From assembly GCA_020073185.1 (NCBI GenBank), contig JAIQFT010000038.1:1-38065 (forward strand): a DNA stretch of 38,065 nucleotides, written 5' to 3'. Positions 5,589 to 8,643 of the stretch are shown here, one piece after another. A program made the position numbers and the translations under genes. Below the pieces are notes generated by a model. The model saw only the letters and a list, made by a program, of their open reading frames with translations. It was not told where the DNA came from and did not search any database. The DNA is from Terriglobia bacterium (lineage in GTDB: Bacteria > Acidobacteriota > Terriglobia > Terriglobales > Acidobacteriaceae). The first letter of the stretch is position 1; each line of letters opens with the position of its first letter.

Positions 5589-6017
5589 CTACGCCCTCGC
5601 TCGCTTGGCGCTGCTGGAGAGGATAACCAGGATCTCCTGCAGTCCCTGGCGCAAACGCTTCAGCCCGTCGGACGGCGCCCGCCGCGGGAACGGCAGTCCC
5701 ACCTGCGTCTTGAGCGCCTTCGATTCCGATCGCAGTTGCTGGCGCGCCCCCGCGATCGTGTAGCCATCGTCGTACAGCAGGGTTTTGATCCGCAGCGCGT
5801 TTTCCAGGTCGCGACGCCGGTACATGCGCTGCCCGGTGCTGCTCTTGGCCGGCTTCAGTTGCGGGAACTCGGTCTCCCAGAACCGCAGCACGTAGGCCGG
5901 CAGCCGGCACAGCCGCGACACCTCCCCAATGCGGAAGTACAGCTTGTCGGGGATCAGCACTTCCTCCCGCTTGTGTTTCCCGGATTTCCTTGCCGTCGCC
6001 ATCCTGTTAACCGGCAT
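5589..6017 (-). CDS. MerR-family transcriptional regulator
   Basis: A 142-residue regulator. After a basic N-terminus comes the MerR winged-helix domain: KLYFRIGEVSRLCRLPAYVLRFWETEFPQLKP (helix-turn-helix), then GQRMYRRRDLENALRIKTLLYDDGYTIAGARQQL (wing and helices), at about residues 25-95. The C-terminal part is short and basic and has no cysteine cluster, so it is not a metal-sensing MerR of the classic kind. It resembles the MlrA-like 'RIGEVSxxxxxxxxVLRFWExEF' group common in Acidobacteriota and Deltaproteobacteria. The start may be the ATG at 6017 or the ATG at 6002. A TAGAAA hexamer at 6048-6053 (minus) is a possible -10. Targets are unknown. Confidence 0.88.
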   Translation of the reverse strand: MPVNRMATARKSGKHKREEVLIPDKLYFRIGEVSRLCRLPAYVLRFWETEFPQLKPAKSSTGQRMYRRRDLENALRIKTLLYDDGYTIAGARQQLRSESKALKTQVGLPFPRRAPSDGLKRLRQGLQEILVILSSSAKRARA

Positions 6018-6251
6018 CAGCCTGCGTTGCCTTCTCCCAGCTTGCGTTTTCTAGCACGGAGTGAGCCGCATAACAACTCCGATGTTGGCGCCCGCTCCAC
6101 TTTCCACAGGCGCCAATTTCTTGGATGCAGGCCTCAGCCTGAGTTTGCTCCGGTTGAGCTTCCCTGAGCACGCAACCCAGCGCCTCATTCCCACGACTCG
6201 GCGCCGCCACCAGATAGTTCACTCGCAACTCCGAACCGGCAAAGATTTCTG

Positions 6252-6281
6252 TTGACTTGATTACACATAAGACCCTATATC
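6252..6281 (+). promoter_or_regulatory. Sigma-70-type promoter of the small lysine-rich ORF
   Basis: TTGACT at 6252-6257 and TATATC at 6276-6281 are separated by 18 bases (or CTATAT after 17). This is the best two-box promoter in the window. Transcription would start near 6288 and give a leader of about 92 bases before the ATG at 6380. The leader contains short complementary stretches (TCTCC with GGAGA), so it may fold. Confidence 0.6.
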
Positions 6282-6379
6282 TTGTGTCAGAGTAAAGGGT
6301 CATACTGCAAATGGTTTGGCCCCTTGGTCTCCGGGCTCTGAAGCAAGGGAGAAAACGTTCCTTAGGAGGAACCACAACC

Positions 6380-6424
6380 ATGCCAATGAAGAAGAAGGCA
6401 AAAAAGAAAGCCAAAAAGCACTAA
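6380..6424 (+). CDS. 14-residue lysine-rich small protein
   Basis: A tiny ORF encoding MPMKKKAKKKAKKH: nine of 14 residues are lysine. It has a strong ribosome site (TAGGAGGA at about 6363-6370) about nine bases before the ATG. A two-box promoter lies upstream (6252-6281) and an intrinsic terminator (6456-6482) follows 31 bases after the stop, so it forms a complete one-gene unit. The product is extremely basic and could bind nucleic acid, ribosome or membrane; that is inference. The ORF could also be a leader peptide or a translated part of a small RNA. Nothing longer is open in this frame. Confidence 0.5.
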   Translation: MPMKKKAKKKAKKH

Positions 6425-6455
6425 CGTTCACAGGGCTCCCGAAGAGGGTTTGAAT

Positions 6456-6482
6456 GGGCTTCCGCCGTCGGAAGCCCTCTTT
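6456..6482 (+). terminator. Intrinsic terminator after the small lysine-rich ORF
   Basis: A perfect 9-bp stem GGGCTTCCG/CGGAAGCCC (6456-6464, 6469-6477) with a 4-base loop, followed by TCTTT. Confidence 0.8.
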
Positions 6483-6490
6483 GCTCAGGT

Positions 6491-6567
6491 GAGAATTGAG
6501 AAGTAAGAAGGAACCGCCCGCGATCCCGATCTTCCCCCTTCGGAAACTGCACTTCTGACTTCTTGCC
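6491..6567 (+). repeat. Imperfect inverted repeat, AGAAGT/ACTTCT type
   Basis: The left arm around 6491-6511 carries GAGAAGTAAGAAGG, and the right arm 6550-6567 carries CACTTCTGACTTCTT, its approximate reverse complement. The same words recur at 7121-7221, 26980-27080 and 36656-36759. It lies just upstream of a DinB gene. Confidence 0.5.
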
Positions 6568-6590
6568 GCTATTGACTTTCCGTTCCCTAC

Positions 6591-6596
6591 TACAAT
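6591..6596 (+). promoter_or_regulatory. -10-like hexamer TACAAT near a DinB start
   Basis: TACAAT ends six bases before the ATG at 6603, so the message would be leaderless or nearly so. TTGACT lies at 6572-6577, but the 13-base spacing is too short for a standard -35. Confidence 0.4.
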
Positions 6597-6602
6597 GTCT
6601 TC

Positions 6603-7148
6603 ATGGATACCGGCACCGCCTACCTCGATGAAGCCCGTCGCGCCCTGCGCGGCCACAAGCGCCTCGCCGAAGGCGCCATCGCCCAGCTCCGCGACGACGA
6701 ACTCTTCCTCCAACTCGACCCCGAATCCAACAGCATCGCCGTGCTGATGAAGCACATCGCCGGCAACCTGCGTTCTCGCTTCACCGACTTCCTCACCAGC
6801 GATGGCGAAAAGCCCGATCGTCATCGCGACCAGGAATTCGAAATTTCCGCCTCCACCACCCGCGCCCAGCTCCTGGAAATGTGGGAATCCGGCTGGAAGA
6901 TCGTTTTCGACACGCTGGCCTCGCTCCAGCCTGCCGACCTGGAGCGCGCGGTCACAATCCGCGGCGAACCCTTGACCGTCCTGCAGGCGGCGCACCGCGC
7001 CGTAGCGCATTACGCCTACCACATCGGCCAGATCGTTTTTCTTGCCAAGCATTTCCGTGGCGCCGAATGGAAGACGCTCAGCATCGCGCGCGGCCAGTCC
7101 GAGCAATTCAACGCCGCCAGGAAGTCAGAAGTAAGAAGTCAAAAGTAA
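6603..7148 (+). CDS. DinB-like protein (DUF1572 type)
   Basis: A 181-residue DinB-fold protein: four helices with a metal site. The likely ligands are His51 (AVLMKHIAGN), His136 and His140 (HRAVAHYAYHIGQIVFLAKH). The 'HYAYHIGQIV' helix and the length fit the DUF1572 group. Related proteins include thiol S-transferases, but the reaction here is not known. No ribosome site is visible and a TACAAT box sits six bases before the ATG. The last residues (SEVRSQK) and stop are encoded by the AGAAGT repeat at 7121-7221, so the repeat appears to have replaced or extended the natural C-terminus. It is one of three DinB genes here, all touching repeats. Confidence 0.85.
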   Translation: MDTGTAYLDEARRALRGHKRLAEGAIAQLRDDELFLQLDPESNSIAVLMKHIAGNLRSRFTDFLTSDGEKPDRHRDQEFEISASTTRAQLLEMWESGWKIVFDTLASLQPADLERAVTIRGEPLTVLQAAHRAVAHYAYHIGQIVFLAKHFRGAEWKTLSIARGQSEQFNAARKSEVRSQK

Positions 7149-7221
7149 GAAGTACCAACAAGGAGCACGCATCGCCGACGGTATTGCTTTGCCTTTCTGA
7201 CTTCTCACTCCTGACTTTTCC
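7121..7221 (+). repeat. Inverted repeat, AGAAGT/ACTTCT type, overlapping a gene end
   Basis: The left arm 7121-7154 is built of AGAAGT(A/C)A units, and the right arm 7194-7221 reads TTTCTGACTTCTCACTCCTG onward, an imperfect reverse complement. The left arm encodes the last residues of the DinB protein and its stop codon. Confidence 0.6.
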
Positions 7222-7258
7222 TTTGCGTCCTTGGCGTGCTTTGCGGTAAAGCTTTTCG

Positions 7259-7290
7259 CTCGCAACTCGCCACTCGGAACTCGCAACTTG
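7259..7290 (+). repeat. Short tandem motif CTCGCAACT
   Basis: CTCGCAACT, CGCCACTCGGAACT and CTCGCAACT follow one another in a 9-10 bp period just before the preferred MFS start. A related CTCACAACTCACAACTCGC run lies at 10123-10140. Confidence 0.4.
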
Positions 7291-8643
7291 TCCACCAATC
7301 CCGAAACCGCGCTCGAGTTCAGCGCCTCCGCCGCAGAGCGCATCTCACCCTCCGCCTACTGGCGCCTGGTACGCGGCAACCGCAACTTCCGCCGCCTCTG
7401 GCTGGCGCAGATCGTTAGCGAAATCGGCGACTGGTTCTACACCGTCACCCTGTACACGCTGCTGCTGCAATTCACCGGACGCGCGCAATCCGTCGGCCTC
7501 GCCCTGGTTCTGCAAGTCCTGCCGCAAACGCTGGTCGGCCCCTCCGCCGGCGTGGTCAACGACCGCGTTCGCCGCAAACGCGTCATGATTACCGCCGACC
7601 TGCTCCGCGCCGGCATTGTCCTGTCGATGTTGCTCGTCCGCTCGCGCTCCACCGTCTGGTTGATTTACCCGCTGCTGGTGATGGAAACCGTCGCCGCCGC
7701 CTTCTTCGAGCCCGCGCGCAACTCCGTCATTCCCAACATCACCCGGCGCGAAGAGGTCATCGTCGCCAACACGCTGTCGTCCATCACCTGGTCATTCGAC
7801 CTCGCCGTCGGGGCCACGCTCGGCGGCATCGTCGCCGTTTTCCTCGGGCGTGAAGCCGTGTTCATCCTCAATGCGCTTTCCTTCGTCGCCTCCGCTCTGC
7901 TCATCGGCGGCATGAGATTTCACGAGCCCCACGCCGCCGGACTGCCACGCCTGCGCCCGCGCGAGGTAGTGGATTTCTCGCCCATGATGGAAGGTCTGCG
8001 CTACCTGCAAGATCGCCCGCGCCTGCTCGCCACCGTACTGGTGAAGGGCGGCCTCGGCCTGATGATCGGCGCCACCTGGATCATCTACACCATCCTCGGC
8101 GAGCGCGAATTCTCCCTCCGCTTCGGCGGCTCCGCCGGCCAAGCTGCCATGCTCGGAATGGGTGTCCTGATCGGTGCGCGCGGCATCGGCGCCCTGCTCG
8201 GCCCGCTCATCGGCGCCACCTGGGCCGGTCAGCGCGACTCCCGCCTTCGCCGCGGCATTCTCTTCGGATTCATTGCCGCCGCCTGCGGCGTGGGCTCGAT
8301 CTCCGTCGCGCCCAACGTCTGGATCGCAATGCTCTGCGTCATCGTCGCCCACTGCGGCGGCTCCATCATTTGGACTTTCTCGACCACCCTGCTCCAGCTC
8401 TACAGCGACGACCAATTCCGCGGGCGCGTCTTCTCCGCCGACCTCGGCATTTGCATGGCCACCATCTCCCTCACCGCCTGGGCCGCTTCCGCCGCCATTG
8501 ACGCCGCCATCCCCGTGCGCCTCCTTGCGGCCATCACCGGCGCCGCCATCCTCATCCCCGCCGGCGCCTGGGCACTCGCCCAGCGTTTCTGGAAATCGAG
8601 TCTCTCGGTGGATTCCTCCATCCGTCGTTCACCTGCAGACTGA
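7288..8643 (+). CDS. MFS transporter (EntS/MFS_3-like exporter)
   Basis: A membrane protein of about 450 residues with roughly 12 hydrophobic helices. The N-terminal half shows RNFRRLWLAQIVSEIGDWFYTVTL, typical of MFS exporters related to EntS/BacE. A motif A-like loop GVVNDRVRRKRVMITADLLRAG follows helix 2, and then FFEPARNSVIPNI, a signature of this subgroup. It sits in the inner membrane and probably exports a small molecule; the substrate is unknown. The frame is open from TTG 7231, but the first 19 codons lie in short-repeat DNA and give an odd N-terminus. TTG 7288 (STNPETALEF...) is therefore preferred. No strong ribosome site is seen, so the start is uncertain. Confidence 0.83.
   Translation: MSTNPETALEFSASAAERISPSAYWRLVRGNRNFRRLWLAQIVSEIGDWFYTVTLYTLLLQFTGRAQSVGLALVLQVLPQTLVGPSAGVVNDRVRRKRVMITADLLRAGIVLSMLLVRSRSTVWLIYPLLVMETVAAAFFEPARNSVIPNITRREEVIVANTLSSITWSFDLAVGATLGGIVAVFLGREAVFILNALSFVASALLIGGMRFHEPHAAGLPRLRPREVVDFSPMMEGLRYLQDRPRLLATVLVKGGLGLMIGATWIIYTILGEREFSLRFGGSAGQAAMLGMGVLIGARGIGALLGPLIGATWAGQRDSRLRRGILFGFIAAACGVGSISVAPNVWIAMLCVIVAHCGGSIIWTFSTTLLQLYSDDQFRGRVFSADLGICMATISLTAWAASAAIDAAIPVRLLAAITGAAILIPAGAWALAQRFWKSSLSVDSSIRRSPAD

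Follow-up and report, generated by a model that had tools for sequence, protein, structure and literature searches.

A window of 38,065 nucleotides (the whole stretch of DNA analysed; contig C38 of a 4.66-Mb genome) carries a stand-alone gene for a lysine-rich peptide of 14 residues, MPMKKKAKKKAKKH. The gene is confirmed as real and not the product of chance, it is widely conserved in the family Acidobacteriaceae with selection on its encoded residues, and the same genome holds a second gene of this kind. Judging by its sequence the peptide is probably a tiny nucleic-acid-binding protein, and the reading we favour, with a probability of roughly 0.55, is that of a monocistronic polybasic microprotein which binds DNA or RNA like a free-standing histone-H1 tail.

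A complete gene unit around 14 codons

The features of the unit and its two neighbours are as follows.

6252 to 6257, + strand: −35 element TTGACT, read directly from the bases
6275 to 6281, + strand: −10 region CTATATC (commonest form among relatives CAATATC), from the bases and alignments
6288 to 6379, + strand: leader of about 92 nt, counted from a predicted start of transcription
6344 to 6360, + strand: conserved leader element CAAGGGAGAAAACGTTC, from alignments
6357 to 6372, + strand: small hairpin GTTCC/GGAAC enclosing the ribosome site, from the bases and the fold
6364 to 6369, + strand: ribosome-binding site AGGAGG, from the bases
6380 to 6424, + strand: ORF MPMKKKAKKKAKKH, 14 aa, with ATG at 6380 and stop TAA, from the bases and the codon-position test
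6456 to 6485, + strand: intrinsic terminator, a 9-pair stem (6456-6477) with its tail, by terminator prediction
5589 to 6017, − strand: MerR-family regulator (Pfam MerR_1), divergent neighbour outside the transcript
6603 to 7148, + strand: DUF1572/DinB-superfamily gene (domain match), downstream neighbour outside the unit

A first-pass annotation of this DNA had described a complete promoter, leader, ribosome site, ORF and terminator within 231 bases, and such a unit is indeed present, as read from the bases and by terminator prediction. The TTGACT/TATATC promoter that it proposed stands in part: both elements are there, TTGACT at 6252-6257 and TATATC at 6276-6281 with a spacer of 18 bp, but the relatives favour a CTATAT-type −10 at 17 bp (the better-conserved form is C(A/T)ATAT, in the window CTATAT at 6275-6280), and a strict promoter scan returned no promoter sites in 5900-7300. 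The 9-bp terminator was recovered as a 9-pair stem, although the T-tract of its tail, TCTTTGCT, is modest. The lysine content, given as 9 of 14 residues, is 8 of 14. The ribosome site, 10 bases from the ATG, is a good one, but its rank among the best in the window is shared, as AGGAGG occurs 27 times on both strands together and in 13 placements lies 4-12 bases 5′ of a start codon. When the RNA from 6285 to 6490 was folded, a z-score of −2.1 was obtained, 5 of 200 shuffles being equally good or better.

An ORF so short and of such low complexity could in principle have arisen by chance inside an intergenic stretch between a promoter and a terminator. This explanation has next to no probability and was rejected on three grounds. 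Firstly, when ATG-started frames of 12-40 codons were required to hold 57% Lys or more, the window had two, both belonging to this gene as nested in-frame starts, and 500 first-order Markov simulations of it had none, in agreement with the earlier judgement that chance was unlikely. Secondly, 276 of 398 family genomes contained a general pattern of a ribosome site and a K-rich start, and no match to the reversed control is among those listed. Thirdly, codon positions are biased among the relatives of the window's type, as described below.

Two gene types and selection on the peptide

A DNA similarity search of 61 genomes, including the window's own, matched 14, and the unit order was present in the three other genomes of the genus among those searched (G001-G003), with the peptides MPMKKKKAAKKAKKH, MPAKKKAKKKAKKH and MPMKKKKAAKKAKKH. 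Most short K-rich ORFs of the family can be assigned to one of two types, and the window's gene belongs to type I. Type I consists of TTGAC, a spacer of usually 17 bp, CAATATCTTG, a leader with CAAGGGARAA..GTTC, GGAGG, the ORF and a terminator; its peptides have 12-18 residues, with Lys blocks spaced by Ala or Thr and mostly a terminal His. Type II has CTTGAC..CTATAC, a TGCAAC/GTTGC leader stem, AAGGGAGAATAG, an ORF of 12-25 aa and a GGGGACGC..GCGTCCCC terminator. The window's genome carries one further microgene rich in Lys, MATKKGGKKAAKKTKKH (L049; G000:C7, near 94268-94296, − strand). It is of type II, with a promoter, a leader stem and a GGGGACGC/GCGTCCCC terminator to itself, and its promoter and leader are largely unlike those of type I.

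The type I pattern matched 48 of 200 family genomes (21 of 62 genera) and the type II pattern 155 of 200 (54 of 62 genera), each with one match to the reversed control; by a hand count from the tables, 47 of the 48 also match type II. The type I figure is an undercount, the pattern missing G003 and G014, both of which carry the gene. A scan of contigs with the pattern gave at least 118 stretches, under names listed that include Candidatus Sulfotelmatobacter, Terriglobia and Acidobacteriaceae MAGs.

For comparison, a set was compiled of 76 type I loci, all distinct, and 48 of type II. The former derive from 81 loci (10 from the DNA search, 5 from family patterns or regions and 66 from the contig-pattern scan) after removal of five duplicates, among them L002, the G001 copy, which duplicates L131. 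The 66 scan loci comprise 45 under acidobacterial titles and 21 (L178 onwards) chosen by their short K-rich peptide; longer proteins, other phyla and L171, an acidobacterial ORF of 44 aa, were left out. The 76 are taken to be acidobacterial, a looser grouping than the window's GTDB family, and as the set is largely pattern-selected and hand-picked for K-rich sequences it is biased towards K-rich peptides. Among the type II loci genus g29 is over-represented, and L029 is cut by a contig end.

The codon test compared equal-length type I pairs from codon 7 to the end. Over all 76 loci, differences at codon positions 1, 2 and 3 numbered 424, 422 and 2169 of 6640 each. A second test excluded three loci for which the search pattern had reached codon 9; in the 73 that remained, outside the search patterns, the counts were 366, 364 and 1923 of 6172 (5.9, 5.9 and 31.2%), and the rate at third positions is thus roughly fivefold that at either of the others. 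The 10 loci found by DNA similarity only, compared from codon 2 on, gave 4, 2 and 18 of 50 in the same direction, over four comparable pairs. An identical peptide, MATKKKAKKKKH, is encoded at 24 loci in 14 DNA versions that vary at third positions alone. The frame holds to the last codon, with a terminal Lys-His in most type I loci: His is the final residue of 71 of the 76 type I peptides and of 28 of the 48 of type II. These comparisons show selection on the encoded residues, and on such sequence evidence the unit can be classed as a putative microprotein gene. The first-pass annotation had proposed to look in relatives for the promoter-ORF-terminator order and for a K-rich peptide with synonymous changes, and both were found; the opposite case, a kept leader with a broken ORF, was seen at none of the loci inspected.

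The signals around the ORF are conserved as well. In type I, TTGAC stands in the 150 nt before 75 of the 76 ORFs (against a mean of 10.3 in shuffles) and CAATATCTTG upstream of 52 (mean 0.0 in shuffles), and TTGAC with a −10 at 16-18 bp is found in all 74 type I loci with enough flank, by a loose and uncontrolled definition of the −10; for type II, a stricter promoter definition (TTGAC, 16-18 bp, TATAC) fits 41 of 47 loci. Some type I promoters contain inverted repeats centred on the −10, such as CTACCCCAATATCTTGGGGTAG (L056, L009 and L254), which were noted by eye, are not present in all, and are perhaps a putative operator. In the leader, AAGGGARA lies upstream of 51 of 76 type I and 34 of 48 type II ORFs, and AAGGGAGAA, a part of the type I leader element, is common to the type II paralogue. 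The GTTC hairpin arm is present in 14 of 15 aligned type I loci, with an inconstant other arm, and is missing from several loci that were located through MerR. A purine-rich ribosome site precedes the ORF in the aligned loci (15 and 32 of type I, 22 and 23 of type II), a feature demanded by most of the searches behind them, the DNA similarity search making no such demand. Among loci with enough flank, a terminator-like hairpin stands behind all 47 type II ORFs and 73 of the 74 of type I, against 161 of 400 random stretches.

Dual-function small RNAs are RNAs that carry a small ORF, and the unit resembles them in its short transcript, conserved leader and ORF. Under this explanation a structured transcript would act by base-pairing, with the peptide secondary. 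The conserved leader elements fit it, as does the type II leader stem, in which three of six pairs are kept through changes on both sides in 23 of 48 loci; with four terminator pairs, this makes 7 of 15 pairs in those aligned loci. We nonetheless consider it rather improbable. Selection on the encoded residues is plain, the two leaders differ save for AAGGGAGAA while the kind of peptide is common to both, and in the 32 of 76 type I loci aligned there is no consensus structure except the terminator, to which all three of the five predicted pairs with both-side changes belong. No Rfam family matched the unit when the window was scanned at the gathering score, nor 6200-6560 at E-values up to 5, and from eight related loci there came only two tRNAs and one hit below threshold. 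In the unit, unlike known dual-function RNAs, coding constraint is clear. Conservation also extends to the leader and the 3′ parts, so that the RNA may have a role in its own right, and a translated leader in a small RNA may be an added function.

Neighbouring genes

Amino-acid attenuator leader peptides are encoded by short ORFs rich in one amino acid and followed by a terminator, and the unit is similar in all three respects. Here, translation of the Lys codons would decide read-through of the terminator into MerR, a proposal that agrees with the commonest gene order: one MerR gene adjoins type I in 66 of 76 loci, and in 63 of the 76 it lies 3′ of the ORF on the same strand, at a median of 229 nt from the stop. 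In three (L001, L131 and L003, which are the window and two loci of the same genus) MerR is upstream and divergent, and in 10 it was not detected in the flanking DNA examined. Attenuation is disfavoured, and to our minds improbable, because MerR is divergent in the window's genus, where the unit is intact, and absent beside type II (0 of 48 loci in the flanking DNA examined), which encodes the same kind of peptide and has a convergent gene downstream in 24 of 48. No gene is fixed downstream on the same strand across the types, unlike in attenuators, and Ala and the terminal His are conserved besides Lys. MerR moreover occurs in nearly all family genomes (78 of 80), and among 20 that were inspected there are 7 in which no K-rich ORF precedes it.

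These 20 were taken from about 54 MerR-positive genomes negative for the type I pattern, and were chosen non-randomly for their higher scores. An intact K-rich ORF was found upstream of MerR in 13, in some cases very different (MKKKKKAKKKKR, MKKKKMMKKKKKK), with the composition kept and the spacing drifting. The other seven had neither of two leader motifs; the absence of motifs proves little, as L246 and L250, with an intact ORF, also lack both. As MerR is near-universal in the family, its adjacency to type I is no proof of a link, and a MerR-specific link was rejected on that account.

Other neighbours vary. A hydantoinase-B-type gene (Pfam) is divergent upstream of type I in 36 loci. Beside type II there is, in 31 of 48 loci, a divergent gene whose sequence reads as thiolase-like, and the convergent downstream gene is PD-(D/E)XK/UvrD-like (Pfam in L049). 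The gene 3′ of the unit may encode an aldo/keto reductase (L166), a beta-lactamase-like protein (L108) or MerR (L150), and in view of such differences among loci a fixed operon partner was rejected.

Nature of the peptide and relatives beyond the family

As the 14-residue peptide is too short for scans of protein libraries, longer relatives were scanned instead. No Pfam or NCBIfam model matched the short relatives scanned at its cut-off; below threshold there were H1-like matches and one to a valine-tRNA ligase model. Two of five relatives (22-58 aa) matched HC2 (PF07382) with 13.2 and 10.6 bits against a cut-off of 40, and the other three had no HC2 match. The peptides share with HC2 and NCBIfam NF038053 a K/A-rich, polybasic and presumably disordered character, but these models span 194 and 195 positions and the ORFs here encode 12-25 aa, with every match staying below its cut-off. 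The two sub-threshold matches may reflect mere composition; they support the reading as a polybasic microprotein. None of the five relatives qualifies for the H1-like HC2 family, the scores being below the curated cut-off. On its sequence, then, the product is a predicted microprotein that resembles H1-like tails and whose scanned relatives fall within none of the H1-like families compared.

Small size and charge also recall eL41, a tiny basic ribosomal protein of eukaryotes with a gene of its own. Such a peptide would dock on rRNA, and like eL41 the peptides here are short, mostly basic and encoded by their own gene, in many genomes. We regard a ribosome-associated mini-protein as unlikely, however, for length, spacing and non-Lys residues drift a lot, unlike what a single rRNA pocket would impose. 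The composition is K/A where that of eL41 is R/K. A search of the PDB with the 25-aa type II relative gave no matches up to an E-value of 10, which counts for little with so short a query. No literature on such peptides in Acidobacteria, and no expression data for them, came up in a search that lay outside most subscription journals, and two passages of PMC11636273 had no bearing on them.

We return to the nucleic-acid-binding microprotein, a reading supported by the type II paralogue, which combines a largely different leader with the same kind of peptide. A sigma-70-like promoter of its own would give a short mRNA of about 190-200 nt, ending at its own terminator, from which a strong ribosome site would direct synthesis of a type I peptide of 12-18 residues. 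With no hydrophobic core the peptide would be disordered, and its charge would allow electrostatic binding to the backbone of DNA (or RNA). Like the tail of an H1-type or lysine-rich nucleoid protein, it could neutralise charge and compact the nucleic acid; DNA binding and compaction are here predicted from charge alone. As the ribosome site lies partly in the leader hairpin, the level of expression may be set there, perhaps by feedback.

Short K-rich ORFs also occur further afield. The general pattern matched 63 of 396 genomes across the phylum (one reversed-control match), and outside the family many of the proteins behind the matches are longer. Within the same order and class it matched 1 of 24 genomes (G053), which has MAAKKKAKKKKR in a type II-like unit, and in another acidobacterial class 31 of 147, part of the proteins being long. 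The phylum and other-class matches include 18 loci with short K/A/G ORFs; 17 of these ORFs are complete, with 23-36 aa, and that of L222 is truncated at the end of its contig. ATCTTGTGG lies upstream in 17 of the 18 and in 16 of 76 type I loci; since it overlaps the −10 in type I, the motif is no proof of homology between the K/A/G set and type I. TGCGCC is upstream in 12 of the 18, and in 10 of these 12 a complementary GGCGCA follows within 90 nt after the ORF. In ten other-class K/A/G genes of 29-34 aa (L071, L072, L217, L223, L227 and L229-L233) the leader has TGCGCC and the stretch behind the ORF GGCGCA, so that a long-range pairing could enclose the ORF; an inverted repeat, ACAAG..TCTTGTGG, is also present in their leaders.

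The K/A ORFs found in Myxococcota encode 21-29 aa and come with a promoter containing TTGAC, a hairpin of the GTCCATTC/GAATGGAC type and a terminator rich in GC. The set consists of L113, L127, L116 and L129, assigned by title, and L202, assigned by similarity; in all five the ribosome site lies between GTTCC and GGAAC, the GTTC..GGAGG stretch having been a requirement of the search. Among the matches listed there were single short cases under the titles Eisenbacteria, Bdellovibrio and Verrucomicrobia.

Some longer proteins were also observed. L062 (G366) encodes 58 aa of repeated K/A/P blocks, between the micro ORFs and full-length H1-like proteins. L065, L066 and L090 are family proteins of 79-105 aa with the same K/A start and a later shared stretch close to NPKQAIAIGLSEARKKG. 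L081-L083 are proteins of 83 aa with a K-rich N-terminal tail resembling the micropeptides, and the part after this tail has what we take to be a resemblance to a histone-type domain.

A gene of 12-18 codons is thus kept in many soil bacteria far below the usual annotation cut-offs, and genes this short are overlooked by standard gene finders. Tentatively, and with less confidence than for the peptide itself, such genes may form a class of free-standing 'histone tails': K-rich genes for 12-36 residues without a fold, each with its own promoter, leader and terminator, in several phyla (Acidobacteriota, in at least two classes, Myxococcota and perhaps others) and with one or more paralogues per genome, which would rank with the smallest known nucleoid proteins. 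Most of them would be too short for the cut-offs used in annotation. Should the peptide bind nucleic acid, a bare charged tail would here be all that is left of a nucleoid or RNA-binding function, and annotation may lack a layer of such genes.
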